DNA of 35,783 nucleotides, taken from assembly GCA_026982705.1 (NCBI GenBank), contig JALSGP010000001.1, positions 1 through 35,783 of the forward strand, written 5' to 3'. This DNA comes from Alphaproteobacteria bacterium. Lineage in GTDB: Bacteria; Pseudomonadota; Alphaproteobacteria; Geminicoccales; Geminicoccaceae. The notes beneath the pieces were generated by a model. That model ran no database searches. It saw nothing but the letters and a program-made list of their open reading frames with translations, and had not been told where the DNA came from. A program made the position numbers and the translations under genes. Of this stretch, positions 3,473 through 16,622 are shown piece after piece; position 1 is the first letter of the stretch; the number at the start of each line of letters is the position of its first letter.

Positions 3473-3715
3473 ATGCCCCTATTGGTTTGCCCGAATTGCG
3501 ACGAAGGCATGCGCGAGGTCGAACGACGGGGCGTGCGCATCGACGTCTGTCCCCGCTGCCGCGGGGTCTGGCTCGACCGCGGCGAACTCGAAAAACTCCT
3601 GGAAACCGCGGCCGACGGGAGGTCGACCGTGTCGCCACCTCCGACACCGCCCACGCACCGCCGCAAGCGACGTTCCTTTCTCGAGGACATCTTCGACTTC
3701 GATCTGTTCGACTGA
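3473..3715 (+). CDS. Small zinc-ribbon protein (zf-TFIIB family)
   Basis: This 80-residue protein has two CxxC knuckles, CPNC at residues 6-9 and CPRC at about 26-29, followed by GVWLDRGELEKLLE. That is the signature of the bacterial zf-TFIIB (TFIIB-type zinc ribbon) family. A Ser/Thr/Pro-rich linker leads to a basic patch and an acidic aromatic tail ending FLEDIFDFDLFD, also common in the family. It presumably binds one zinc ion; the cellular role is unknown. The ATG has a good GGGAGG ribosome-binding site. It lies divergent from the str operon and 69 bases before mobB, and a functional link to either is not established. Confidence 0.85.
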   Translation: MPLLVCPNCDEGMREVERRGVRIDVCPRCRGVWLDRGELEKLLETAADGRSTVSPPPTPPTHRRKRRSFLEDIFDFDLFD

Positions 3716-3784
3716 GACGGCCTTCGCCTTCCCTCGGACCCACGGTGAACCAACTTCCTTCCGGATCGGGAGCGGGGCAGGTCC

Positions 3785-4300
3785 ATGGCGCGGGCACCGG
3801 TCTTCGGCATCGTCGGCTACAAGAACAACGGCAAGACCACCCTCCTCGTGCGGCTGGTGCGGCATCTGAGCGCGCGCGGTCTCGTGGTCTCCACCGTCAA
3901 GCACGCCCACCACAGTGTCGAGCTCGACCAGCCGGGCAAGGACTCCTACGAGCACCGGCGCGCCGGCGCCCGCGAGGTGATGCTGGCCACCGCCCGCCGC
4001 TGGTTCCTCGTCCACGAGCTGGCGGACGCGGGGGACGAGCCACCGCCGCTGGCGCGCCTGCTGGCCCGCATGTCGCAGGCCGATCTGGTGCTGGTGGAGG
4101 GTTTCAAGACCTGCGACCATCCCAAACTGGAGGTGCACCGGCGGGCCCGCGGCACCCCGCTCCTCGCCCGCGGCGATCCCACCGTGCTGGCGGTGGCGAG
4201 CGACGGACCGCTGGAGGACCTCGACCGGCCCGTCTTCCATCTCGACGACATCCCCGCCATCGCCGACTTCGTGCTGCGTCACGCGAGGAGGTGGCCGTGA
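3785..4300 (+). CDS. mobB: Molybdopterin-guanine dinucleotide biosynthesis protein B
   Basis: MobB is a GTP-binding P-loop protein that assists attachment of GMP to molybdopterin, making the MGD cofactor of many oxidoreductases. The 171 residues start MARAPVFGIVGYKNNGKTT, with the Walker A at residues 11-18. They continue with the family segments STVKHAHH, DSYEHRRAGA and LVLVEGFKTCDHPKLEV. The stop overlaps the moeA start as GTGA, so the two genes are translationally coupled. No mobA is visible in the window; its partner may be elsewhere. Confidence 0.94.
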   Translation: MARAPVFGIVGYKNNGKTTLLVRLVRHLSARGLVVSTVKHAHHSVELDQPGKDSYEHRRAGAREVMLATARRWFLVHELADAGDEPPPLARLLARMSQADLVLVEGFKTCDHPKLEVHRRARGTPLLARGDPTVLAVASDGPLEDLDRPVFHLDDIPAIADFVLRHARRWP

Positions 4301-5547
4301 GCGCCCGCGACTGTCTCGACTACGGGCGGATGACGCCGGTGGCGGAGGCCCGCGCCATCCTCGCCCGTCACGCCCGTCCCCTCGCCGGCATCGAGCGCGT
4401 TCCCCTCGCCGCCGCCCGCGGCCGCATCCTCGCCCGCGACCTGGTGAGCCCGCGCGACGTGCCGCCCTTCGACAATGTGGCGGTGGACGGCTACGCCTTC
4501 GCCGCCGCCGCCCTCGCCGGCGGTCGCCGCGAGCTCCGGCTGCTGGCCGGCGTCGCCGCCGCCGGTCATCCCTTCCCCGACCCCGTGCCCGAGGGGCGGG
4601 CGGTGCGCGCGCTCACCGGCGCGCCGCTGCCGGCCGGCTGCGACACGGTGGTGATGCAGGAGGAGGTGGAGGTGGCCGGCGACCGCCTGCGCCTGCCCGG
4701 ACACGTGCGTCCCGGCGCCAACGTCCGCCGCCGCGGCGAGGACGTGACCCGCGGCGGTCGCGTCGTCGTCGCCGGCACCCGTCTCGGCCCCCAGCATCTG
4801 GGGGTGGCCGCCGAGCTCGGCCTCGCCGAGCTGGAGGTGCGCACGCCGCTGCCGGTGGCCCTCTTCTCCAGCGGTGACGAACTGGTGGAGCCGGGTGGCA
4901 CGCCCGGTCCCGGCGGCATCTACGACGCCAACCGCCCCATGCTGCGGGCGCTGCTCGGCGATCTGCCCGTGACCGTCACCGATCTCGGCATCCTTCCCGA
5001 CCGGCGGGAGGCGGTGGAGGAGGCGGTGCTCGGGGCGGCGCGCCGGCACCCTCTGGTGATCACCTCCGGCGGCGCCTCCACCGGCGACGAGGACCATCTC
5101 TCGCGTCTGCTGGAGGCGCGCGGCGAGGTGCTGTTCTGGCGGGTGGCCATGAAGCCCGGCCGCCCTCTCGGCTTCGGCCGGCTGGAGGACGCCTTCCTCT
5201 TCGTGCTGCCGGGCAATCCGGTGGCCGCGGCCCTGGGGTTCCTGCTGTTCGCCCGGCCCTTCCTGCTGGCGCTGGCCGGTGCCTCCTTCGCGCTCCCCGA
5301 GCCGCTGCCGCTGCCGGCCGCCTTCGCCCTCACCAAGCGCGGCGACCGCACCGAGTTCGCCCGCGCCCGGCTGGTGCGCGAGTCCGACGGCACCGTCGCC
5401 GTGGCGCGCATTCCCCGGGAGGGCTCGGGCATCCTCACCTCCCTCACCGAGGCCGACGGCATCGTCGAGCTGCCGCCGGAGGTGACCCGGGTGGAGCCGG
5501 GTGATCCCGTCCTCTACCGTTCGCTCGTGGACCTCGGCTGTCGCTGA
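4297..5547 (+). CDS. moeA: Molybdopterin molybdenumtransferase MoeA
   Basis: MoeA inserts molybdate into adenylylated molybdopterin. The 416-residue length is normal. Motifs include PPFDNVAVDGYAF near residue 60, SSGDELVEPG and GGIYDANRPML in the middle, ITSGGASTGDEDHL in the MPT-binding domain, and KPGRPLGFG and LPGNPVAAA further on. The GTG start at 4297-4299 was chosen because AGGAGG (4286-4291) lies 5 bases upstream and the codon overlaps the mobB stop. An in-frame GTG at 4291 lies on top of that ribosome-binding site. It forms an operon with mobB. Confidence 0.95.
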   Translation: MSARDCLDYGRMTPVAEARAILARHARPLAGIERVPLAAARGRILARDLVSPRDVPPFDNVAVDGYAFAAAALAGGRRELRLLAGVAAAGHPFPDPVPEGRAVRALTGAPLPAGCDTVVMQEEVEVAGDRLRLPGHVRPGANVRRRGEDVTRGGRVVVAGTRLGPQHLGVAAELGLAELEVRTPLPVALFSSGDELVEPGGTPGPGGIYDANRPMLRALLGDLPVTVTDLGILPDRREAVEEAVLGAARRHPLVITSGGASTGDEDHLSRLLEARGEVLFWRVAMKPGRPLGFGRLEDAFLFVLPGNPVAAALGFLLFARPFLLALAGASFALPEPLPLPAAFALTKRGDRTEFARARLVRESDGTVAVARIPREGSGILTSLTEADGIVELPPEVTRVEPGDPVLYRSLVDLGCR

Positions 5548-5606
5548 GGGGCGAGGATCGCGCGCCTCGCACCGGCGGGGCCGCGGGGGCGGATGGCGGC
5601 GGACGG

Positions 5607-8330
5607 ATGCGGGAGGAGACCGTGGCACCACGCGGGGAGTTCCCTTGGCACGCGTGCACCGTCGAGGAGGTCCTCGCCCGTCTCGAGGCCGGGCCCGACG
5701 GCCTGTCCGGCGAGGAGGCGAAGCGCCGGCTCGCGCACTTCGGCCCCAACCGCCTGCCGGAGCCGCCCCGGCCCTCGCCCTTCCGACGCTTCGTCCGCCA
5801 GTTCCACGACGTGCTGATTTACATGCTGCTGGCGGCCGCCGCCGTCACCCTCGCCTTGGGCGAGGGCGTGGACACCCTCGTCATTCTCGCGGTGGTGGTG
5901 GCCAATGCCCTCATCGGCTTCTGGCAGGAGGGCCGGGCGGAGCGGGCCATGGAGGCCATCCGCCGGCTGCTGGCGCAGCGGGCGCTGGTGGTCCGCGACG
6001 GCCATCGCCGCACCGCGCCGGCCGAGGAGCTGGTGCCGGGCGACGTGGTGCTGGTGACGGCCGGCGACCGGGTGCCGGCCGATCTGCGGCTGATGGAGGC
6101 GGCGGGGCTGGAGGTGGACGAATCGCCGCTCACCGGCGAATCCGTGCCGGTGCGCAAGGACCCGGAGCCGGTGCGGCCCGACGCGCCCCTGGCCGAGCGC
6201 CGGGACATGCTCTACTCCGGCACCCTCGTCACCCGTGGACGGGGACGGGGCGTGGTGGTGGCCACCGGCCGGGCCACCGAGGTGGGGCGCATCGGCGGCC
6301 TGCTGGAGCGCATCGCCCCCACCCCCACGCCCCTCGCCCGCCGCTTCGCCCGCTTCTCCCGCTATCTCACGCTCGGCATCCTGCTGCTCGCCGCCGCCAC
6401 CCTCGCGGCGGGCGTGCTGCTGCACGGGCGGCCCCTCGGCGAGGCGTTCATGGCGGCGGTGGCCCTGGCGGTGGCCGCCATTCCCGAGGGCCTGCCCGCC
6501 ATCGTCACCATCACCATGGCCATCGGCGTCGAGCGCATGGCCCGCCGTCGCGCCATCGTCCGCCGCATGCCGGCCATCGAGACGCTGGGCTCGGTGGACG
6601 TGATCTGCTCCGACAAGACCGGCACCTTCACCCGCAACGAGATGACGGTGGAGGCGGTGGTCCTCGCCCGCGGCCTCGTCACCGTCACCGGAGAGGGCTA
6701 CGCACCCCACGGCGAGTTCCTGGCGGACGGCCGTCCCCTCGCGCCGGAGCGCGACGCCACGCTGCGGGAGCTGCTCACGGCCGCCGTGCTCTGCAGCGAC
6801 GCCGAACTGCGCGTGCGTGACGGCGAATGGACGGTGGAGGGCGATCCCACCGAAGGGGCCCTGCTGGCCGCCGCCCTCAAGGCCGGGCTCGAGCCGCGGC
6901 GCCTGCGTGCCGACCTGCGCCGTCTCGACGAGATCCCCTTCGATCCCGAACGGCGCTTCATGGCGGTGCTGGTGGAGGACCGCGACGGTCGCCGCTTCGT
7001 GCACGTCAAGGGCGCCCTCGAGGCGCTGCTGGCCATGTGTGCCGCCCAGCGAACCGAGGACGGCGGCGAGGCGCCGCTCGATCTGGACGTCTGGGTGGCC
7101 CGCATGGAGCAGCTCGCCGCCCGCGGCGATCGGGTGCTGGCGGTGGCGAGCCGGGAGGTGGAGGCCGGAACCGGCCGGCTGCCGCCGCCCGGGGAGCTGG
7201 ACGGCCGGCTGGTGCTGCTGGGCCTCGTGGGGCTTCTGGATCCGCCGCGGCCGGAGGCCGTCGCCGCGGTGGCCACGTGCCGGGCCGCCGGCATCCGTGT
7301 GAAGATGATCACCGGCGACCACGCCGCCACCGCCCGCACCGTCGCCGAACGTCTGGGACTCGCCGAGACGGCGACGGTGCTCACGGGGGCCGATCTCGAC
7401 CGTCTCAGCGACGCCGAACTGGCCGACCGGCTGGAGCGGGTGGACGTGTTCGCCCGCACCACGCCCGAACACAAGCTGCGGCTGGTGACGCTGCTGCAGC
7501 GGCGGGGCCACGTGGTGGCCATGACCGGCGACGGCGTCAACGACGCTCCGGCCCTGCGGCGGGCCGACGTGGGCATCGCCATGGGCCGGCGGGGCACCGA
7601 GGCGGCGAAGGAGGCCGCGGACATCGTCCTCGCCGACGACGATTTCGCCACCATCGCCGCCGCCGTCGAACAGGGACGCCTCGTCTACGACAACATCCGC
7701 AAGGCGGTGGCCTGGATCCTGCCCACCAACGGCGCCGAGAGCCTGGTGGTGTTCGCCGCCATGTCGCTGGGACTGGTGCTGCCCCTCTCGCCAGTGCAGG
7801 TGCTGTGGGTCAACACCGTCACCACCGTCACCCTCGCCCTGGCCCTCGCCTTCGAGGGACCGGAGCCGGACGTGATGGCGCGCCCGCCGCGGCGGCCCGA
7901 CGAACCCTTCCTGTCGACGGTGCTGCTGCAGCGGCTGCTGCTGGTGAGCCTGCTCGGCAGCGGGGCCACCTTCGCCGTCTTCGAATGGTACGGGGCGGCC
8001 GGCGCCGGCCTCGCCGAGGCGCGCACCGCCGCCGTCCACGCCCTGGTGGCCTGTGAGGCCTTCTATCTCTTCGCGGCCCGCCGTTTCGCCGATCCCGCCT
8101 TCGCCAGGCCTGCCCTCGCCACGATCCGGCCGGCACTGGTGAGCTTCCTGCTGGTGTGGCTGGCCCAGCTCGCCTTCACCTACGGCGGTCCCCTCGCCCG
8201 CGCCCTCGACGCGGCGCCGGTGGGACCCGGCGCCTGGGCGGCGGCGACGGCGGCGGGTCTCGTGGTGCTGGCGGCGGTGGAAGTGGAGAAATGGTTGCGC
8301 CGGCGACGGGCGGGCCCGTCCGGCCCCTGA
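5607..8330 (+). CDS. P2-type cation-transporting ATPase, substrate uncertain
   Basis: This is a 907-residue P-type ATPase of the Ca2+/cation (P2) class that would pump ions across the inner membrane. It has an N-terminal cation-ATPase domain, the actuator motif TGES at residues 176-179, PEGLP in TM4 from residue 293, the phosphorylation site DKTGT with Asp336, and the hinge TGDGVNDAP from residue 640. Two features stand out. The phosphorylation loop reads DKTGTFT rather than the near-universal DKTGTLT. In TM6 the residue matching SERCA Asp800 is Thr740 (LWVNTVTT), while equivalents of SERCA Asn768, Glu771 and Asn796 are kept (Asn708, Glu711, Asn736). The transported ion therefore cannot be named. 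A GTG at 5622, with GGAGG 5 bases upstream, may be the true start (902 residues). Confidence 0.93.
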   Translation: MREETVAPRGEFPWHACTVEEVLARLEAGPDGLSGEEAKRRLAHFGPNRLPEPPRPSPFRRFVRQFHDVLIYMLLAAAAVTLALGEGVDTLVILAVVVANALIGFWQEGRAERAMEAIRRLLAQRALVVRDGHRRTAPAEELVPGDVVLVTAGDRVPADLRLMEAAGLEVDESPLTGESVPVRKDPEPVRPDAPLAERRDMLYSGTLVTRGRGRGVVVATGRATEVGRIGGLLERIAPTPTPLARRFARFSRYLTLGILLLAAATLAAGVLLHGRPLGEAFMAAVALAVAAIPEGLPAIVTITMAIGVERMARRRAIVRRMPAIETLGSVDVICSDKTGTFTRNEMTVEAVVLARGLVTVTGEGYAPHGEFLADGRPLAPERDATLRELLTAAVLCSDAELRVRDGEWTVEGDPTEGALLAAALKAGLEPRRLRADLRRLDEIPFDPERRFMAVLVEDRDGRRFVHVKGALEALLAMCAAQRTEDGGEAPLDLDVWVARMEQLAARGDRVLAVASREVEAGTGRLPPPGELDGRLVLLGLVGLLDPPRPEAVAAVATCRAAGIRVKMITGDHAATARTVAERLGLAETATVLTGADLDRLSDAELADRLERVDVFARTTPEHKLRLVTLLQRRGHVVAMTGDGVNDAPALRRADVGIAMGRRGTEAAKEAADIVLADDDFATIAAAVEQGRLVYDNIRKAVAWILPTNGAESLVVFAAMSLGLVLPLSPVQVLWVNTVTTVTLALALAFEGPEPDVMARPPRRPDEPFLSTVLLQRLLLVSLLGSGATFAVFEWYGAAGAGLAEARTAAVHALVACEAFYLFAARRFADPAFARPALATIRPALVSFLLVWLAQLAFTYGGPLARALDAAPVGPGAWAAATAAGLVVLAAVEVEKWLRRRRAGPSGP

Positions 8331-8537
8331 TGGACGAGGCGGCGCCGGCGGCGCGGGTGGAAACGCGGGCCGACGAGACGGCCGCCCGGTTGCCGGAGGA
8401 GCCCTCGCGGCGCGAGGTGAAGGTTCCCCTCGACGTCCGCGGCTTCACCGTGCCGGACGTGTTCAGGATGGATGCCGGCATCGACTGCGGCAGGCGCCGG
8501 CCGGAACCGCCCCGGCTCGGCCACCGGGCGCGCGGAC
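8331..8537. other. Convergent spacer with a possible gene remnant
   Basis: These 207 bases lie between the convergent ATPase and anti-sigma genes. A rightward frame opens at an ATG (8330-8332) that overlaps the ATPase stop as TGATG. It is protein-like for roughly the first 60 codons (acidic and basic residues, GC-ending third positions). It then runs to 8884 antisense to the anti-sigma gene, where composition becomes shadow-like. It matches no family I know. It could be a decayed or truncated gene or chance coding. No terminator with a U-tract is visible. Confidence 0.3.
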
Positions 8538-9140
8538 TCAGGCGGCGCGCCGGTCCGGGGAGCCGAGGGGACGTCGGCAGCAGAGGAGCGAGAGGAAGAG
8601 ACAGCCGTCCCTCCCCGCCGCCGGCGCGTGCAGCGTGGTCTCGTCGCACACGGCGAGATCGCCGCGGAGAAAGCGGGCACCGCCGTCCCTCAGTTCCCCC
8701 TCCAGCACCAGCGTCACCTCGAGGCCGGGATGGCCGTGCGGTGGCAGGGCGGCACCGGGCGCCAGCCGCGAGAGGGTGGCGCACATGCCGGCCCGGGGAC
8801 CGCCGGGGACCGGCACCGGCCGCTGCACCACCGGTACGCCGTCGGCGGCGGGCGGCAGCGGCACCCCGGCGAGGAGACGGGTGAGGGAGTCGCGCGGGCC
8901 GGTGGCCGGGGGGTCGGCGATGACGGCGCGGGCCAGCACCGCCTCGGGATCGGTGCGGACGAGGGCGGCCGGCTCCAGTCGCTCGAACAGGAGGCCGCCC
9001 AGTTCCAGCAGCAGGCCGAAGCGCCGGCGCGAGCGCGGTGAAAGGGCGAGATGGGCATCCACCAGCAGGGCGAGGGGCGGCGGCAGGCGGCCGGCCGCGT
9101 GGGCCAGCAGCAGATCGTCGAGATCCGCCGCCGGCGTCAT
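8538..9140 (-). CDS. ChrR-like cupin anti-sigma factor with degenerate N-terminal zinc site
   Basis: ChrR proteins hold their ECF sigma factor inactive and release it on oxidative (for example singlet-oxygen) stress. The 200 residues give an N-terminal anti-sigma domain (about 1-85) and a C-terminal cupin (about 105-185). Against Rhodobacter sphaeroides ChrR, the cupin ligands H141, H143, E147 and H177 correspond to H135, H137, E141 and H171, all present with a constant offset. In the anti-sigma domain the ligands H6, H31, C35 and C38 correspond to A5, H30, S34 and S37, so three of four are lost (DAHLALSPRS). Near the C-terminus one cysteine (C180, DGCLFL) remains where ChrR has a C-x-C pair. 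The start overlaps the sigma stop as ATGA. Placement in the ChrR family is secure; the zinc-free inference rests on recalled residue numbers. Confidence 0.88.
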   Translation of the reverse strand: MTPAADLDDLLLAHAAGRLPPPLALLVDAHLALSPRSRRRFGLLLELGGLLFERLEPAALVRTDPEAVLARAVIADPPATGPRDSLTRLLAGVPLPPAADGVPVVQRPVPVPGGPRAGMCATLSRLAPGAALPPHGHPGLEVTLVLEGELRDGGARFLRGDLAVCDETTLHAPAAGRDGCLFLSLLCCRRPLGSPDRRAA

Positions 9141-9703
9141 GAGGCCTTCTCCCCGAGTCGCTCGCGCAGCTTGTCGAGGGCGAGGCGGATGCGCGACTTC
9201 ACCGTCCCCAGCGGGAGTCCCAGCGCGTCGGCGATCTCGCCGTGCGACCTGCCCTCCAGATAGTAGATGCGCAGCACCTCGGCCTGCTCCGGCGGCAGCT
9301 CCTCGATGGCGCGTTCCAACTGACGGCGCAGCAGCGCGATCTCCCGCTCGGCGAACTCCGGCTCCTCGCGGGCGATCTCCCGCGCCTCCTCCTCCGGGCG
9401 GAACTCGGCCCGCGGCGCCCGCCGGAACGCGTCGATTCTTTTGTTGCGCGCGATGGCGAAAATCCAAGTGGCGGGAGTCGCCCTGCGGGGGTCGAACTGA
9501 CCCGCCCGTTCCCACACCGTGAGCATCACCTCCTGGGCCAGTTCCTCGGCCTGCTGATCGTCCAGCCCCAGCCGCCGCAGGTACGCCTTGACCCGCGGTG
9601 CGAAATGGGCGAACAGCCGCGCGAACGCCCGCCGGTCGCGCCGTTCGGCCACGGCTCGGAGATCGGCGGCGAGGCGGGCGGAGGTGTGCTCGGCGGAGCT
9701 CAT
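9137..9703 (-). CDS. ECF RNA polymerase sigma factor (RpoE/ECF11-like)
   Basis: This is a group IV sigma factor of 188 residues. The region 2 core runs from about residue 25 to 100, with AYLRRLGLDDQQAEELAQEV followed by ATPATWIFAIARNKRIDAFRR. The region 4 helix-turn-helix follows, as LPPEQAEVLRIYYLEGRSHG and LGLPLGTVKSRIRLALDKLR. The pairing with a ChrR-type protein points to the ECF11 group, whose known members respond to singlet oxygen. The ATG at 9701-9703 (MSSAEHTS) was chosen; the frame is open further upstream but runs into the divergent gene. Autoregulation is expected for the family, but I could not identify a matching promoter. Confidence 0.93.
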   Translation of the reverse strand: MSSAEHTSARLAADLRAVAERRDRRAFARLFAHFAPRVKAYLRRLGLDDQQAEELAQEVMLTVWERAGQFDPRRATPATWIFAIARNKRIDAFRRAPRAEFRPEEEAREIAREEPEFAEREIALLRRQLERAIEELPPEQAEVLRIYYLEGRSHGEIADALGLPLGTVKSRIRLALDKLRERLGEKAS

Positions 9704-9776
9704 GGCTCCCTTGAAGCCCCCCTCGGATCGCGGTGCAAGGGGCGGGGTCGGTTGCACGAAGGCGGAGAGGTCTCGG
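9704..9776. promoter_or_regulatory. Divergent promoter region with an inverted repeat
   Basis: These 73 bases separate the sigma-factor gene from the FAD oxidoreductase gene and must hold the starts of both transcripts. The clearest element is an inverted repeat TGCAA-N13-TTGCA (9734-9738 and 9752-9756), of operator-like size. The ribosome-binding site GGAGAGG (9764-9770) belongs to the rightward gene. I found no convincing -35/-10 pair for sigma-70 and no TGATC-type ECF11 element. Confidence 0.35.
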
Positions 9777-10916
9777 GTGGAGACGGTCGACGCGCTGGTG
9801 GTGGGTGCGGGCGTGGTGGGACTGGCCACCGCCCGCCGCCTCGCCATGGCCGGCCTCGAGACGCTGGTGGTGGAGCGACACGCCGGCCCTGGCGAGGAGA
9901 CCAGCTCCCGCAACAGCGAGGTGATCCACGCCGGCCTCTACTATCCGCCGGGCAGTCTGCGCGCCCGCTGCTGCATCGCCGGTCGCGACTTCCTCTACCG
10001 CTATCTCGCCGAGCGCGGCGTCTGGCACCGCCGCCTCGGCAAGCTGGTGGTGGCCACCGACGAACGCCAGCATCCGCGCCTCAGGGCGATCCTGGACAAC
10101 GCCCGGGCCAGTGGCGCGGGTGCGCTGGAATGGTGGGACGCCCGGCGGGTCCACCGTGTGGAACCGGAGCTCGCGGTCACCGCCGCCCTGTGGTCGCCCG
10201 CGAGCGGCGTCCTCGACGCCCACGGCCTCATGACGGCCTATCTGGCCGATGCCGAGGCCCACGGCGCGGTGCTGGTGCCCCGCACCCCCCTCACCGGGGT
10301 GACGGTGGAGGCCGATCGCTTCGTCTGCCGCTTCGCCGATGCCGCCGGGACGGTGCTGGCCACCCGCCGCCTGGTGGTGGCGGCGGGACTGGCGGCACCG
10401 GAGCTCGCCCGCCGCATCCGTGGCCTCGATCCCCGCCAGGTGCCCCGCCAGTGGCTGTGCAAGGGGAACTACTTCACCCTGCGCGGCCGCTGTCCCTTCC
10501 GCCATCTCGTCTATCCGCTGCCGGACGAGGCCAGTCTCGGCATCCACGTGACGCCCGACCGCAGCGGCCGCTGCCGCTTCGGCCCCGATGCCGAATGGGT
10601 GGACCGGGTGGACTACCGGGTGGATCCCGGCCACGCGCCCGCCTTCGTCGCGGCCATCCGCCGCTACTGGCCCGATCTGCCGGCGGACGCCCTCGCACCG
10701 GACTATGCCGGCATCCGTCCCAAGCTACACCCGCCCGGCACGCCGCGCCCGGACTTCCGGGTGGACGGCCCCGAGGTCCACGGCATCCCGGGGCTGGTGC
10801 TGTTCTTCGGGATCGAGAGTCCGGGACTCACCGCCTCGGCGGCCCTCGCGGAGGTAGCGGCGCGGCGGCTCGGCCTGCCCCCCTCCGCCGAGTTCAGCGA
10901 TCTCGCCGTCCCATGA
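9777..10916 (+). CDS. FAD-dependent oxidoreductase, LhgO (L-2-hydroxyglutarate dehydrogenase)-like
   Basis: This 379-residue flavoprotein belongs to the DAO superfamily. The N-terminus carries the Rossmann motif DALVVGAGVVGLATARRL. The segment SSRNSEVIHAGLYYPPG is characteristic of the LhgO/L2HGDH group, which oxidises L-2-hydroxyglutarate to 2-oxoglutarate. Later matches include KGNYFTL, HLVYPLPDE, GIHVTPD and FFGIESPGLTAS. The GTG at 9777-9779 was chosen because GGAGAGG lies 6 bases upstream and no ATG is suitably placed. The 3' end overlaps fabZ, read the other way, by 23 bases. Its exact substrate is inferred from the family only. It is divergent from an oxidative-stress-type sigma factor, so co-regulation is possible. 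Confidence 0.88.
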   Translation: METVDALVVGAGVVGLATARRLAMAGLETLVVERHAGPGEETSSRNSEVIHAGLYYPPGSLRARCCIAGRDFLYRYLAERGVWHRRLGKLVVATDERQHPRLRAILDNARASGAGALEWWDARRVHRVEPELAVTAALWSPASGVLDAHGLMTAYLADAEAHGAVLVPRTPLTGVTVEADRFVCRFADAAGTVLATRRLVVAAGLAAPELARRIRGLDPRQVPRQWLCKGNYFTLRGRCPFRHLVYPLPDEASLGIHVTPDRSGRCRFGPDAEWVDRVDYRVDPGHAPAFVAAIRRYWPDLPADALAPDYAGIRPKLHPPGTPRPDFRVDGPEVHGIPGLVLFFGIESPGLTASAALAEVAARRLGLPPSAEFSDLAVP

Positions 10917-11379
10917 GCTTGGCGCCGAAGGCGGCCTCGCTCACCACCTCGCCGTCCACCCGCGCCGTCGCCTCGTATTTGAAGACGCCGAGCTTCGCCC
11001 GCACCAGCCGCACCTCCAGCGCGAGCCGGTCGCCCGGGCGCACCGGCCGGCGGAAGCGGGCGCCGTCGATGCTCATGAAATAGACGCTGCTGCCCTCGTA
11101 GGCGGGACCGTAGCTGGCGATGGTCATGACGGCCGCCGTCTGGGCCATGGCCTCGATGGTGAGCACCCCCGGCATGATGGGATCGTCGGGAAAGTGGCCG
11201 GGGAAGAAGGGTTCGTTGACGGTGACGTTCTTGATCCCCACCGCCCGTTCGAAGGCGGTGATCTCCACCACCCGGTCGATCAGCAGGAAGGGATAGCGGT
11301 GGGGAATGATCCGCGTGATCCCCGCGATGTCCACGTCGGGAAGCGGGGTTCCCTTTTCGGGAACGGAGCGGTCGCTCAT
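10894..11379 (-). CDS. fabZ: 3-hydroxyacyl-ACP dehydratase FabZ
   Basis: FabZ removes water from 3-hydroxyacyl-ACP in fatty-acid elongation. The 161-residue protein has HRYPFLLIDRV and then the active-site helix FFPGHFPDDPIMPGVLTIEA, with catalytic His62 and Glu76. A short N-terminal extension precedes the hot-dog fold. It is the last gene of the long leftward cluster, 12 bases after skp, with AGGGAGA as ribosome-binding site. In most Gram-negatives lpxD lies between skp and fabZ and lpxA follows fabZ; both are missing here, and the next gene downstream is convergent. The last 23 bases overlap the oxidoreductase gene. Confidence 0.96.
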   Translation of the reverse strand: MSDRSVPEKGTPLPDVDIAGITRIIPHRYPFLLIDRVVEITAFERAVGIKNVTVNEPFFPGHFPDDPIMPGVLTIEAMAQTAAVMTIASYGPAYEGSSVYFMSIDGARFRRPVRPGDRLALEVRLVRAKLGVFKYEATARVDGEVVSEAAFGAKLMGRRDR

Positions 11380-11391
11380 GCGGGGTCTCCC

Positions 11392-12024
11392 TCAGCGGTC
11401 CCGGGTGCCGGCGTCGGAGTCCGCTTCCGGCACCGTCACGTCGGGAAGCCGGCGATCGACGGCGGCCAGCACCTCCTCGGTGAGGTCGAGCCGGGGCGCG
11501 AACAGGAGGACGGCGGTGCTGGGCAGGACCAGGTTGAAGCCCTTCTCGTCGGCCATCTCGCTCACCACCTGGACGATGGTGTCGCGCACCACCGCGAAGG
11601 CCTCGGCCGAGGCCCGATCCAGCTCCCGCCGCCGCTGCTGCACCAGGCGCTGCACCCGCGCCGCCTCCTCCTCGAAGGCGCGGCGCTTCTCGGCGAAGGC
11701 CTCAGGCGAGAGCAGCCCCTTCTGACGGGCGAGTTCGCGCTCGCGCGCCACCAGCCGCCGTTCCAGCTCGCGGATCTCCCGCTGATAGCGGGCACGCCGC
11801 GCCTCGAGCTGGTTGCGGATGCTCCGGGCCGCCTTGGCCTCGCGCAGCACGCGCTGATAGTCCACCACCGCCACCACCGCCGGCGGCAGCGGTTCGGCGG
11901 CGGCGCGCCACGGCAGGGCGAGGACGACCACGGTCACCAGCAGGGCGAGGGCGGGGCCGAACCACCCGCGCTCAGAAGCGGGTGCCGAAGCTGAGCCGGA
12001 AGCGTTCGGTCTCGTCCTCGTCAT
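11392..12024 (-). CDS. skp: OmpH/Skp-family periplasmic chaperone
   Basis: Skp-type proteins hold unfolded outer-membrane proteins in the periplasm before BamA-dependent insertion. The 210-residue product has an N-terminal hydrophobic segment (about residues 23-40, PALALLVTVVVLALP) ending in AAAE, which looks like a signal peptide. The family start AVVDYQRVLREAKAARSI follows. Then comes a long charged coiled-coil (about 75-150) and the C-terminal segment EKGFNLVLPSTAVLLFAP. The only good start, the ATG at 12022-12024, lies 53 bases inside bamA, because the signal peptide needs residues encoded in the overlap. The position after bamA is the classical one. Confidence 0.88.
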   Translation of the reverse strand: MTRTRPNASGSASAPASERGWFGPALALLVTVVVLALPWRAAAEPLPPAVVAVVDYQRVLREAKAARSIRNQLEARRARYQREIRELERRLVARERELARQKGLLSPEAFAEKRRAFEEEAARVQRLVQQRRRELDRASAEAFAVVRDTIVQVVSEMADEKGFNLVLPSTAVLLFAPRLDLTEEVLAAVDRRLPDVTVPEADSDAGTRDR

Positions 12025-14263
12025 TCTTCACCACGGCCTGGGCGAAGTCGATGGAGAGCGGCCCCAGCGGCGAGACCCAGGAGACGCCGACGCCGGCACC
12101 CACCCGGACGTCGCCGCTGTCCACCAGATTGGGACCGCTCACGTCGACGTCGGTGAGGGTCCCGGCATCCACGAAGGCACGCCCGAACATGCGCAGTTCC
12201 TTGGGCAGCCCCAGCGGGAACCGCAGCTCGGCGGTGCCCACATAGTACAGATTGCCGCCGAGGGCATCGCCCGTGGTGCGGTCCCGGGGACCGATGCCGG
12301 CGAAGCGGAAGCCCCGCAGGGTGGAGCCGCCGATGAAGAAACGGTCGGCGAGATGGACGTCCCCACCGAGTCCGAGGATGTGGCCGGCGCGGATCCCCAG
12401 GTTCACCACCACGTCGGGTACCACGGAATAGTACCACGCCGCCCGCAGTTCGTGGCGGACGTAGCGGTTGTCACCCCCGAGACCGGCGAAGTCCTGATCG
12501 ATGCGCACCACGAAGCCCTCGCTGGGCAGGAACACGTTGTCCCGCCGGTCCCACTTCAGGGTGTGGCCGATGGCGGAGGTGACCCGGCCGCCCTGCTCGC
12601 GCCGGATAAAGGCCGAGGCCGCCGGATCCACGTTGTCGATCTCGATGCGACGCAGCGCGTAGCGGACGGAATGGCGCAGGAACTCGGAGAGGGGATAGCC
12701 GACGCGGATGCGTCCGCCGTCCCGACGCTGATCGAAGGAGGCCTCGGTCTGGAAGTCGGTCACCGTGTGGAAGAGGTCGATGCCCGCCGACAGTTCGTGC
12801 CCGAGGAAGTAGGGCTCGGTGAAACTGAAGTCGAAGCGCGTGGTCCGGCCGGAGACGGTGAAGGAGAGGTCCAGCTTCTGCCCGCGGCCGAGCAGGTTGC
12901 GCTCCGACAGCCGGGCGTCGGCCAGGAAGCCCTCGGCGGTGGAGTAGCCGCCGCCGAAGGAGAGCTCGCCCGTGGGCTGCTCCTCCACCTCCACCTCCAC
13001 CACCAGCCGGTCCGGGGCGCTGCCCTGGCGGGTGCGCACGTCGACCCTGGAGAAATAGCCGAGGTTGCGCACCCGTTGGATCGACCGGCGCAGGAGGGAG
13101 GCGTTGAAGGGATCTCCCTCGGCGAGGCGGAACTCGCGCCGGATCACCCGGTCGAGGGTGCGGACGTTGCCGCGGATCTCGATGCGCTCGACGTAGACCC
13201 GCGGGCCGCGGCTGATGCGGAAGACGATGTCCACCACCCGCTTCTCGCGGTCGAGGCGTTCCTCCGGCTCGATGCGCGCGAAGGCGTAGCCGAGTTCGCC
13301 CAGCTTTTCCGTGATGGCCTGGACGGTGCGCTCGATGGCATCGGCATCGTAGATCCCACCCTCGCGCACCTCCACGAGCCGCCGCAGCTTCTCCGGTTCC
13401 AGTTCGGGGATGTCCGAGACCAGCTCCACCTTCCCGAAACGGTAGCGCGGTCCCTCGTCGACGGCGAAGGTGAGATAGTAGCAGCGCCCGTCGGGACCGA
13501 GCTGGGCGGTGACCGCCGTCACCTCGAATTCGGCATAGCCGCGGGCACGATAGTGACGGCGCAGGCGCTCCTTGTCGAGCTCGACCCGGTCGGGGTCGTA
13601 GACGTCGGCGCTGCTGAAGAAGCGATACCAGGCGGTCTCGCGGGTGGAGACGACACCCCGCAGCGTACTGTCGGAGAAGGCGCGGTTGCCGACGAAGGCG
13701 ATCCCGCACACGCGGGTCACCGGCCCCTCGCGGATCTCGAACACGAGGTCCACCCGGTTCTGCGGGCGACGGATGATCTTGGGCTCGACCCGCGCCGCGT
13801 AGCGGCCGTTGCGGCGGTAGAGGTCGAGGATGCGCTCCACCGCCTCCTGCACCCGCCGGCGGCTGAAGACGCTGCGGGGTGCGATGCCCACCTCGGCCCG
13901 GAGCTGCTCGTCGTCGATGGCCGAATTGCCCTCGAAGGCCACCCGGCTGACCACGGGGTTCTCCACCACCCGCACCACCAGCACGTCGCCGCGGCGTTCG
14001 AGACGCACGTCCTCGAACAGACCGGTGGCGAAGAGGGTCTTGAGGGAGCGGTCGAGGCGGTCGGGGTCGAAGGGATCGCCCGGGCGCACGGCCAGATAGC
14101 CCAGGACGGTGGCGTCCTCGACGCGCCGGTTGCCCTCCACCACGATCTCGCGGATGCGGACCTCGGCGGGACCGGCCTGGGCGTGGACCCGCGGTGCGGT
14201 CAGAGGCGATGCGAAGAATGTCAGTGTCAGCCCGAAGGCGAGCACCCGAGCGATGGGACCCAT
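11972..14263 (-). CDS. bamA: Outer-membrane protein assembly factor BamA
   Basis: BamA is the central Omp85-family insertase for beta-barrel outer-membrane proteins. The 763 residues comprise a signal peptide (MGPIARVLAFGLTLTFFA, cleaved near VHAQ), five POTRA domains (roughly 30-430) and a 16-strand barrel. The barrel is visible from FGGGYSTAEG and RNLLGRGQ through FFIGGSTLRGF (the conserved loop-6 region). It ends in RLSFGTRF, with the C-terminal phenylalanine of a beta-signal. The ATG at 14261-14263 has GGAAGG upstream and begins the signal peptide, although the frame is open further upstream. It is flanked by rseP and skp, the usual order. Confidence 0.96.
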   Translation of the reverse strand: MGPIARVLAFGLTLTFFASPLTAPRVHAQAGPAEVRIREIVVEGNRRVEDATVLGYLAVRPGDPFDPDRLDRSLKTLFATGLFEDVRLERRGDVLVVRVVENPVVSRVAFEGNSAIDDEQLRAEVGIAPRSVFSRRRVQEAVERILDLYRRNGRYAARVEPKIIRRPQNRVDLVFEIREGPVTRVCGIAFVGNRAFSDSTLRGVVSTRETAWYRFFSSADVYDPDRVELDKERLRRHYRARGYAEFEVTAVTAQLGPDGRCYYLTFAVDEGPRYRFGKVELVSDIPELEPEKLRRLVEVREGGIYDADAIERTVQAITEKLGELGYAFARIEPEERLDREKRVVDIVFRISRGPRVYVERIEIRGNVRTLDRVIRREFRLAEGDPFNASLLRRSIQRVRNLGYFSRVDVRTRQGSAPDRLVVEVEVEEQPTGELSFGGGYSTAEGFLADARLSERNLLGRGQKLDLSFTVSGRTTRFDFSFTEPYFLGHELSAGIDLFHTVTDFQTEASFDQRRDGGRIRVGYPLSEFLRHSVRYALRRIEIDNVDPAASAFIRREQGGRVTSAIGHTLKWDRRDNVFLPSEGFVVRIDQDFAGLGGDNRYVRHELRAAWYYSVVPDVVVNLGIRAGHILGLGGDVHLADRFFIGGSTLRGFRFAGIGPRDRTTGDALGGNLYYVGTAELRFPLGLPKELRMFGRAFVDAGTLTDVDVSGPNLVDSGDVRVGAGVGVSWVSPLGPLSIDFAQAVVKNDEDETERFRLSFGTRF

Positions 14264-14307
14264 GGTGCCTTCCCGTCCTCTCCCAGATCGCCGCCGCGGG
14301 CGACGGA

Positions 14308-15402
14308 TCAGCCGGAATCGGATCCGAACAGCTCGAGCTGGCGGAGGTCGTTCCAGGTGGCGAACAGCATGAGCGTCACCACCATGGCCAGCCCGATGCG
14401 GAACAGGATCTCCTGGCTGCGCTCCGACAGCGGCCGCCCGCGCGCCGCCTCGATCGTGTAGAGGAGAAGGTGACCGCCGTCCAGCATGGGGATCGGGAAC
14501 AGATTGATGAGGCCGAGGTTGAGTGACAGGATCGCCGCGAACCAGAGCACCGGCACCAGCCCCTGGCGGGCGATCTCGCCCGACATCTGGGCGATGCGCA
14601 GGGGCCCGCCCAGCTCTTCGGTGCCGCGGGTGCCGACGATCATCTGCCCCACCGCCTGCAGCGTGCCGGCGATCATGCGGCCGGTCTCCGCCACCGCCTC
14701 GACGAGGGCGCTGCCGGGGCCGAGACGGCGGTACTCGAGCCCGCGGCTGGTGACGCCCACGAGACCGATGCGCACCGTCCCCGCCGGCGTCTCCACCTCC
14801 CGTAGCTCCGGCACCACCGTGAGCTCCAGCGTACGGCCGTCGCGGCGGACGGTGAAGACGAGCGGCGTGCCCGGCGCGTCGCGGACGATGCGCTGGAGGT
14901 CCTCGAAACTGTCCACCGTCTCGCCGTTCACGGCGAGGATGCGGTCGCCCGGCAGCAGTCCCGCCGCGGCCGCCGGCGAGTCCGGCATCACGTCTCCCAC
15001 CACCGGCGGCGCGTAGGGCTTGCCGTAGACCAGGAACAGCAGGGCGAAGACCAGCACCGCGAAGAGGAAATTGGCGAGGGGCCCGGCGGCGACGATGGCC
15101 ATGCGCTGCCCGACGCGCTTGGCCGGGAAGGCGTCGGGGGTGCGGGCCGCGCCCGGCGTCTCCTCCTCGCCCAGCATCTTCACGTAGCCCCCCAGCGGCA
15201 CCAGCGCGAACTTCCAGCGGGTGCCCCGGCGGTCGGTCCAGCCGAAGAGTTCGGGGCCGAAGCCGATGGAGAAGACCTCCACCCGCACGCCGTTGCGGCG
15301 TGCCACCCAGAAGTGGCCGAACTCGTGGACGAAGACCACCACCGAGAGGATGAGGAGGAAGGGGACGAAATAGCCGACGACGAGCTGGACGAGGTCGATC
15401 AT
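14308..15402 (-). CDS. rseP: RIP metalloprotease RseP (site-2 protease)
   Basis: This is an inner-membrane zinc protease that cuts transmembrane segments, such as those of anti-sigma factors and signal-peptide remnants. Of 364 residues, the first transmembrane helix carries HEFGH (His26, Glu27, His30). PLGGYVKMLGEE follows at about 69-81. There is one PDZ domain (about 133-185). The second metal motif is LFPIPMLDGGH, with Asp308 in TM3. E. coli RseP has two PDZ domains; the shorter single-PDZ form is common in alphaproteobacteria. The start overlaps the dxr stop as ATGA. The ChrR-like factor in this window has no transmembrane segment and is therefore not an obvious substrate. Confidence 0.95.
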   Translation of the reverse strand: MIDLVQLVVGYFVPFLLILSVVVFVHEFGHFWVARRNGVRVEVFSIGFGPELFGWTDRRGTRWKFALVPLGGYVKMLGEEETPGAARTPDAFPAKRVGQRMAIVAAGPLANFLFAVLVFALLFLVYGKPYAPPVVGDVMPDSPAAAAGLLPGDRILAVNGETVDSFEDLQRIVRDAPGTPLVFTVRRDGRTLELTVVPELREVETPAGTVRIGLVGVTSRGLEYRRLGPGSALVEAVAETGRMIAGTLQAVGQMIVGTRGTEELGGPLRIAQMSGEIARQGLVPVLWFAAILSLNLGLINLFPIPMLDGGHLLLYTIEAARGRPLSERSQEILFRIGLAMVVTLMLFATWNDLRQLELFGSDSG

Positions 15403-16622
15403 GCGCGGTCCGCGCTCCCGTGCTGGCCGGCGAGGCGCAGCCGCCGGCGGGTCCAGGTGCGCGCCTCGGCATCGAGCCGCAGCACCTCTTCGAGCGTGCC
15501 CGGACGGACGGCGGCGAGCGGTGTGGCCAGGGCCTCCTCCACCGTCCGGGCGATGTCGAGGAAGCCGATCCGACCGGCGAGGAAGGCCTCCACCGCGATC
15601 TCGTTCACGGCATTGAGGACAGTTGGGGCCCCGCCCCCGCGTCTCAAGGCCTCGCGGGCCAGCGTCAGGGCGGGGAAGCGTGCCGGATCGGGAGCCTCGA
15701 AGTCGAGGCGCCCGAGGGCCACGAGATCGAGGCGGGCGACGCCGGTGGCGAGCCGCGACGGCCAGGCCAGCACGTGGGCGATGGGCACGCGCATGTCGGG
15801 CGGGCCGAGCTGGGCCAGCACCGAGCCGTCGGTGAAGACCACGAGGCCGTGGACCACCGACTGGGGATGGACCACCACCTCGATGGCCCGCTCGTCGAGA
15901 CCGAAGAGATGGTGGGCCTCGATGATCTCGAGACCCTTGTTCATCATGGTGGCGGAATCGACGGTGATTTTGGCCCCCATGCGCCAGTTGGGATGGGCCA
16001 GCGCCCGGTCCGGCGTGGCGCGGGCCATCTCCTCGCGGCTGGCGGTGCGGAAGGGACCGCCCGAGGCGGTGAGGACGATGCGCTCCAGGTGGCGGCGGGG
16101 ATTGCCGGCCAGCGCCTGGAAGACGGCGTTGTGTTCGGAGTCCACGGGCAGCAGGACGGCGTCGTGGGTGGCCACCTCGCGCACGAACAGTTCGCCGGCG
16201 GAGACCAGACACTCCTTGTTGGCGAGGCCGACGACGGCACCCCGCCGGACGGCGGCGAGGGTGGGCTCGAGGCCGGCGGCGCCGACGATGGCGGCCATCA
16301 CCAGCTCGCTCGGCCGCATGGCCGCCTCCACCACCGCCCGCGGGCCCGCCGCCGCCTCGATGCCGCTGCCGGCGAGCGCCTCCCGCAGCTCGCCGTAGGC
16401 GGCGGGGTCGGCCACCACGGCGAGGCGGGCGCGGTGGCGGCGGGCGAGACGGGCGAGCTCGCCGGCGCGACGGTGGGCGGTCAGCGCCTCGATCTCGAAG
16501 CGGCCCGGATCCTCGGCCACCACCTCGAGGGTGGCGCGGCCGACGGAACCGGTGGCGCCCAGCACCGTGAGCCGGCGCGGCCAGTGGGGCGCACAGTCGC
16601 CGGCACCCGCGGCCGGGATCAC
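15399..16622 (-). CDS. dxr: 1-deoxy-D-xylulose 5-phosphate reductoisomerase
   Basis: Dxr converts DXP to 2-C-methyl-D-erythritol 4-phosphate, the committed step of the non-mevalonate isoprenoid pathway. The 407 residues show the NADPH motif LGATGSVGRATL, then LANKECLVSAGE, LPVDSEHNAVFQ, TASGGPFR, and the metal/substrate segment WRMGAKITVDSATMMNKG. The GTG start at 16620-16622 overlaps the cdsA stop as GTGA, with GGGGAGG about 6 bases upstream; a second GTG one codon earlier is equally possible. The neighbouring uppS uses products of this pathway for undecaprenyl diphosphate, which fits the cluster. Confidence 0.96.
   Translation of the reverse strand: MIPAAGAGDCAPHWPRRLTVLGATGSVGRATLEVVAEDPGRFEIEALTAHRRAGELARLARRHRARLAVVADPAAYGELREALAGSGIEAAAGPRAVVEAAMRPSELVMAAIVGAAGLEPTLAAVRRGAVVGLANKECLVSAGELFVREVATHDAVLLPVDSEHNAVFQALAGNPRRHLERIVLTASGGPFRTASREEMARATPDRALAHPNWRMGAKITVDSATMMNKGLEIIEAHHLFGLDERAIEVVVHPQSVVHGLVVFTDGSVLAQLGPPDMRVPIAHVLAWPSRLATGVARLDLVALGRLDFEAPDPARFPALTLAREALRRGGGAPTVLNAVNEIAVEAFLAGRIGFLDIARTVEEALATPLAAVRPGTLEEVLRLDAEARTWTRRRLRLAGQHGSADRA

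Follow-up and report, generated by a model that had tools for sequence, protein, structure and literature searches.

A ChrR-like anti-sigma factor that lacks its N-terminal zinc site and keeps its cupin metal site: a probable zinc-independent regulator of ECF11 type

The reverse-strand gene at 8538-9140 of the window (the whole stretch of 35,783 nucleotides that was analysed) encodes a ChrR-like protein that is probably, at roughly three chances in four, a zinc-independent anti-sigma factor of ECF11 type, with zinc-free folding and sigma sequestration, a cupin sensor and a small regulon led by rpoH. In the proposed mechanism, the N-terminal domain would fold and sequester its sigma factor without structural zinc, ordinary protein packing taking over from the metal cluster. 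Ser34 would serve as a helix-capping residue in place of the first cysteine and Ser37 as a small residue in place of the second, while the hydrophobic residues L7 and F41 near the end of the bundle may form part of the substitute packing. Sensing would fall to the cupin domain, whose His-His-Glu-His metal site is intact; the signal, for which singlet oxygen or organic hydroperoxides are the most likely candidates, would free the sigma factor to transcribe a small regulon, for which the second rpoH is the best candidate target. We infer zinc-free folding, inhibition of the sigma factor, the identity of the signal and sensing by the cupin from comparisons of sequences.

The open reading frame translates without frameshift into 200 amino acids with the layout of ChrR, an N-terminal anti-sigma domain followed by a C-terminal cupin with an HHEH site (Table 1). 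Against TIGR02451, the ChrR family model, the protein scores 87 bits (E = 1.4e-24; 82 bits in the genome search), which is below the curated cut-off of 124.5 bits and leaves it outside the family by score. Residues 8-182 align with ChrR in the PDB (2Q1Z/2Z2S chain B; phmmer, E = 1.4e-17), Foldseek with a weak model of the protein also ranks 2Z2S/2Q1Z at the top, and Pfam Cupin_7 matches at 38 bits, with a cut-off of 27 bits. The best PDB match of the partner sigma factor is R. sphaeroides SigE (2Q1Z_A, E = 2e-40), followed by SigK (7.5e-17), so that by PDB match the adjacent sigma factor is closest to SigE, as in ECF11.

Table 1. Positions of the anti-sigma gene, its partner and their features in the window
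Feature	Position	Strand	Basis
ChrR-like anti-sigma factor, 200 aa (stop codon 8538-8540)	8538..9140	-	TIGR02451, PDB ChrR, Foldseek
N-terminal anti-sigma domain without HHCC zinc site, residues 1-72	8925..9140	-	alignment; dN/dS against L002
Cupin domain, residues 101-193; H135, H137, E141, H171 and Cys180 kept	8562..8840	-	Pfam Cupin_7, alignment
Ala5 codon GCG, at ChrR His6	9126..9128	-	alignment, codon comparison
His30 codon CAT, kept, at ChrR His31	9051..9053	-	alignment, codon comparison
Ser34 codon TCA, at ChrR Cys35; between predicted helices 21-33 and 35-54, putative N-cap position	9039..9041	-	codons; low-confidence model
Ser37 codon TCG, at ChrR Cys38	9030..9032	-	codon comparison
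Partner ECF sigma factor, 189 aa; stop overlaps anti-sigma start codon (ATGA)	9137..9706	-	PDB match; Sigma70_r2, r4_2
Stretch upstream of sigma gene without TGATCC-N16-CGTA	9707..9950	-	strict scan negative

Residues were compared in an alignment of 202 distinct full-length proteins, among them R. sphaeroides ChrR, whose first eight residues were added by hand. The residue assignments of the original prediction hold in this alignment: A5, H30, S34 and S37 stand at ChrR H6, H31, C35 and C38, and the ZAS motif H/C-x24/25-H-x3-C-x2-C is not matched by these four residues. The cupin ligands H135, H137, E141 and H171 correspond to ChrR H141, H143, E147 and H177 at a constant offset, as had been claimed, and the reported absence of one cysteine of the C-x-C pair is borne out, with Cys187 kept as C180 and Cys189 replaced by Phe. 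Both serine codons, TCA for S34 and TCG for S37, are clean and free of any frameshift, as first described. A relative of the same genus, L002 (MAG Rhodospirillales bacterium S141_52), encodes Ser at both places with the opposite codons (TCG and TCA), which makes sequencing error at these positions very unlikely. The numbering of the ChrR ligands in the alignment agrees with the published one (PMC6852236). The cysteine at ChrR 187 (codon of C180 at 8601-8603, reverse strand) is present in all 202 proteins; in R. sphaeroides ChrR, C187 and C189 are dispensable for induction (PMC6852236).

Gene order over 3487-15472 is as in L002, running moeA, P-type ATPase, (HPRT), anti-sigma, sigma, FAD oxidoreductase, fabZ, skp and bamA. 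Between the P-type ATPase and anti-sigma genes lies a forward-strand gene remnant (8288-8540), which is probably hypoxanthine phosphoribosyltransferase-like. Its two ends match an intact 186-aa gene of L002 (5597-6154, reverse strand), while about 93 residues in between are absent from the remnant, and Pfam returned no match for it.

Relatives were collected by searching TIGR02451 in the taxonomic family and order of the window's genome (31 genomes), in the class (385) and in the phylum (299). The count of homologues that the original prediction had called for gives the HHCC site in 138 of the 202 proteins and its absence in 64 (32%), so that loss of the zinc site is a recurrent, clade-wide state rather than a singleton. 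The protein had been treated as exceptional, a view that does not survive: about one third of the sampled ChrR-like proteins are alike, including 23 of the 28 alignment rows from its own family. No protein in the alignment has three of the four HHCC ligands; because the N-terminus, close to the first His, is variable, a one-residue shift there could alter a few ligand counts, though not those of the Cys pair. The cupin ligands are conserved in 202/202, a figure that is partly built in, as the sampling favours good scores over both domains. No ChrR-like relatives were found in viral contigs. A link between zinc loss and loss of photosynthesis was considered and rejected, both kinds of protein occurring with and without reaction centres.

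A tree built from 185 alignment columns, none of them a ligand column (unrooted, quick search), places the protein in a 20-member clade drawn entirely from its own taxonomic family, in which no member has the zinc site (0/20; SH-aLRT 95). The state of the zinc site changes 19 times at fewest, and at least six changes are forced by well-supported branches, the direction of change being our reading of the tree. Inside the clade of R. sphaeroides ChrR, three proteins that lack the Cys pair branch among HHCC members, an arrangement best read as loss. L101, L106 and L108, close relatives of R. sphaeroides ChrR that belong to its clade and come from a single family, keep His6 and His31 and carry S/N-x-x-A at the Cys pair. 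In comparison with L002, the N-terminal domain (residues 1-72) has dN 0.12 and dS 0.65, a dN/dS of about 0.19 that indicates a constrained domain under purifying selection; the value for the cupin domain is about 0.28, and long stretches are invariant between the two proteins.

Of the 64 proteins without HHCC, 39 carry Ser, Asn, Asp or Thr at position 35, and 49 carry Ala, Ser or Gly at position 38. Because Asn and Asp need more than a one-base change from Cys, helix capping is a reasonable guess for what may replace the first cysteine. Within the 20-member clade, Leu at position 8 and Tyr or Phe at position 42 are frequent. The aromatic at position 42 (F41) was rejected as a general replacement for zinc, since it occurs in 15 of 20 members of this clade and in only 4 of 21 site-less lineages, and is lineage-specific. 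Sign tests for compensating columns on independent pairs had just six supported pairs and little power. The AlphaFold prediction for the protein, made from a four-sequence alignment, was poor (mean pLDDT 51), and analysis of packing on this model was dropped for that reason.

The sigma gene lies directly upstream of the anti-sigma gene in 51 of 64 site-less cases and in 122 of 137 HHCC cases. A pattern spotted upstream in relatives' loci, TGATCC-N16-CGTA, fits the ECF11 promoter consensus. In its strict form it stands before the sigma gene at 78 of 122 HHCC loci and 23 of 48 site-less loci, with at most 0.1 expected from shuffles. A strict scan upstream of the sigma gene found it neither at the protein's own locus nor in L002, and within 300 bp upstream of the sigma domain the closest match carries three mismatches, which is no better than shuffled sequence; the ECF11 autoregulatory promoter, common and not universal in the family, is thus missing from this sigma gene.

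The regulon of the window's own genome was probed through pattern and family searches. Five strict sites were found, compared with none for the reversed pattern, and one of them precedes an RpoH gene, 66 bp from its start. When the sites are set against the TIGR02392 matches, the lower-scoring of which is taken as the second rpoH, a site falls 70-160 bp upstream of this gene in 19 of 26 judged family genomes, among the matches listed. The site is present in the whole genus (all four genomes, G000, G006, G007 and G008), and between G000 and G007 both promoter boxes are kept and the spacer differs. From the motif and its co-occurrence with rpoH, we infer that the partner sigma factor may act at this site. 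In six genomes a DUF1365 gene lies about 1.4-1.5 kb downstream of the site on the same strand, an arrangement read as a furan-fatty-acid type operon. Family searches of the window's own genome found no DUF1365, photolyase or photosynthetic reaction-centre genes, and the lack of photolyase and DUF1365 genes, together with the missing promoter motif of the sigma gene, points to a reduced regulon. In G000 and G007 alike, the pattern also precedes a prfB-like gene (L246 and L239, position 1501), which makes this gene a candidate second target of the sigma factor.

Indirect support for the original suggestion that the sigma factor may be held without zinc comes from the overlap with the sigma gene, from purifying selection, from the 20-member site-less clade and from the ECF11-type rpoH promoter in the genus. 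A rival possibility is that anti-sigma function was lost, leaving a decaying or re-used cupin protein and a free sigma factor. The loss of all zinc ligands but one, the TIGR02451 score under the cut-off and the absent autoregulatory promoter would be expected of such a gene, but selection on the N-terminal domain, its long invariant stretches in comparison with L002, the retained gene overlap and conservation of the state across the clade make this very improbable. It is also quite improbable that the N-terminal domain still binds metal via other residues, for example His14 and His30. Within the clade, His is found at the place of ChrR Tyr15 in 17 of 20 members and His31 is kept in 18 of 20, yet these are the two candidate ligands that remain, no new shared Cys column appears in the domain, and His at the Tyr15 place, present in 20 of the 64 site-less proteins with 17 of those in this clade, is rare in other site-less lineages.

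A zinc-free anti-sigma factor could also be at work under a signal that differs from that of ChrR, and the original prediction had proposed a different signal sensed through the cupin alone. The cupin part of that proposal fits, its ligands being conserved throughout the alignment; the other part fares less well, since the usual ECF11-type promoter is kept at rpoH, which speaks for a signal like that of ChrR and not for a new one. A changed signal would suit a genome without reaction-centre, photolyase and DUF1365 genes and a sigma gene without the usual promoter. It is nevertheless unlikely in view of the genus-wide rpoH site, the invariant cupin ligands, the occurrence of site-less proteins in genomes both with and without reaction centres, and the promoter that some relatives also have about 1.4-1.5 kb ahead of DUF1365, as expected for a furan-fatty-acid operon. 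The preferred reading is still a zinc-independent anti-sigma factor with a cupin sensor.

In R. sphaeroides ChrR, zinc binding by the N-terminal domain is required for sigma inhibition, and E147 and H177 of the CLD are needed, while RseA-type domains keep the same fold by protein contacts and not by zinc (PMC6852236). According to the ECF11 review (PMC6852236), it is unknown what part the N-terminal zinc of ChrR plays when cells respond to singlet oxygen, and a model-peptide study proposed this zinc as a reactive target (PMC6432622). Non-zinc class I anti-sigma domains amount to about 44% overall and 28% of soluble ones and are mixed within groups (PMC7406223). The readable literature yielded no account of ChrR-cupin proteins that lack the zinc site; zinc-free anti-sigma domains in general are already known, and what is new is how the loss is distributed among ChrR proteins and that the regulon is retained. 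It is tentatively suggested that site-less ChrRs still release their sigma factor on singlet oxygen or organic hydroperoxides. If they do, the cupin alone would sense the signal, and the N-terminal zinc finger would be a mere structural option, lost many times. Natural ChrR relatives in which the site was lost repeatedly, with the cupin and part of the regulon kept, let the question of the sensing metal site be asked directly.

Among known systems, the protein is most like R. sphaeroides ChrR (PDB 2Q1Z, 2Z2S), with which it shares two domains, an operon with a SigE-like sigma factor, cupin ligands at a constant offset and an ECF11-type promoter in the family; it differs from ChrR in lacking H6, C35, C38 and the second cysteine of the C-x-C pair and in its shorter C-terminal tail. 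An anti-sigma domain without the H-x3-C-x2-C motif is also found in RseA, RskA and other non-zinc ASDI (Wu et al. 2020, PMC7406223), although RseA and RskA are membrane-bound and have no ChrR cupin. The proteins L101, L106 and L108 resemble it in the replaced Cys pair, the retained cupin and the retained promoter, but they keep His6, and their change is independent on the tree.
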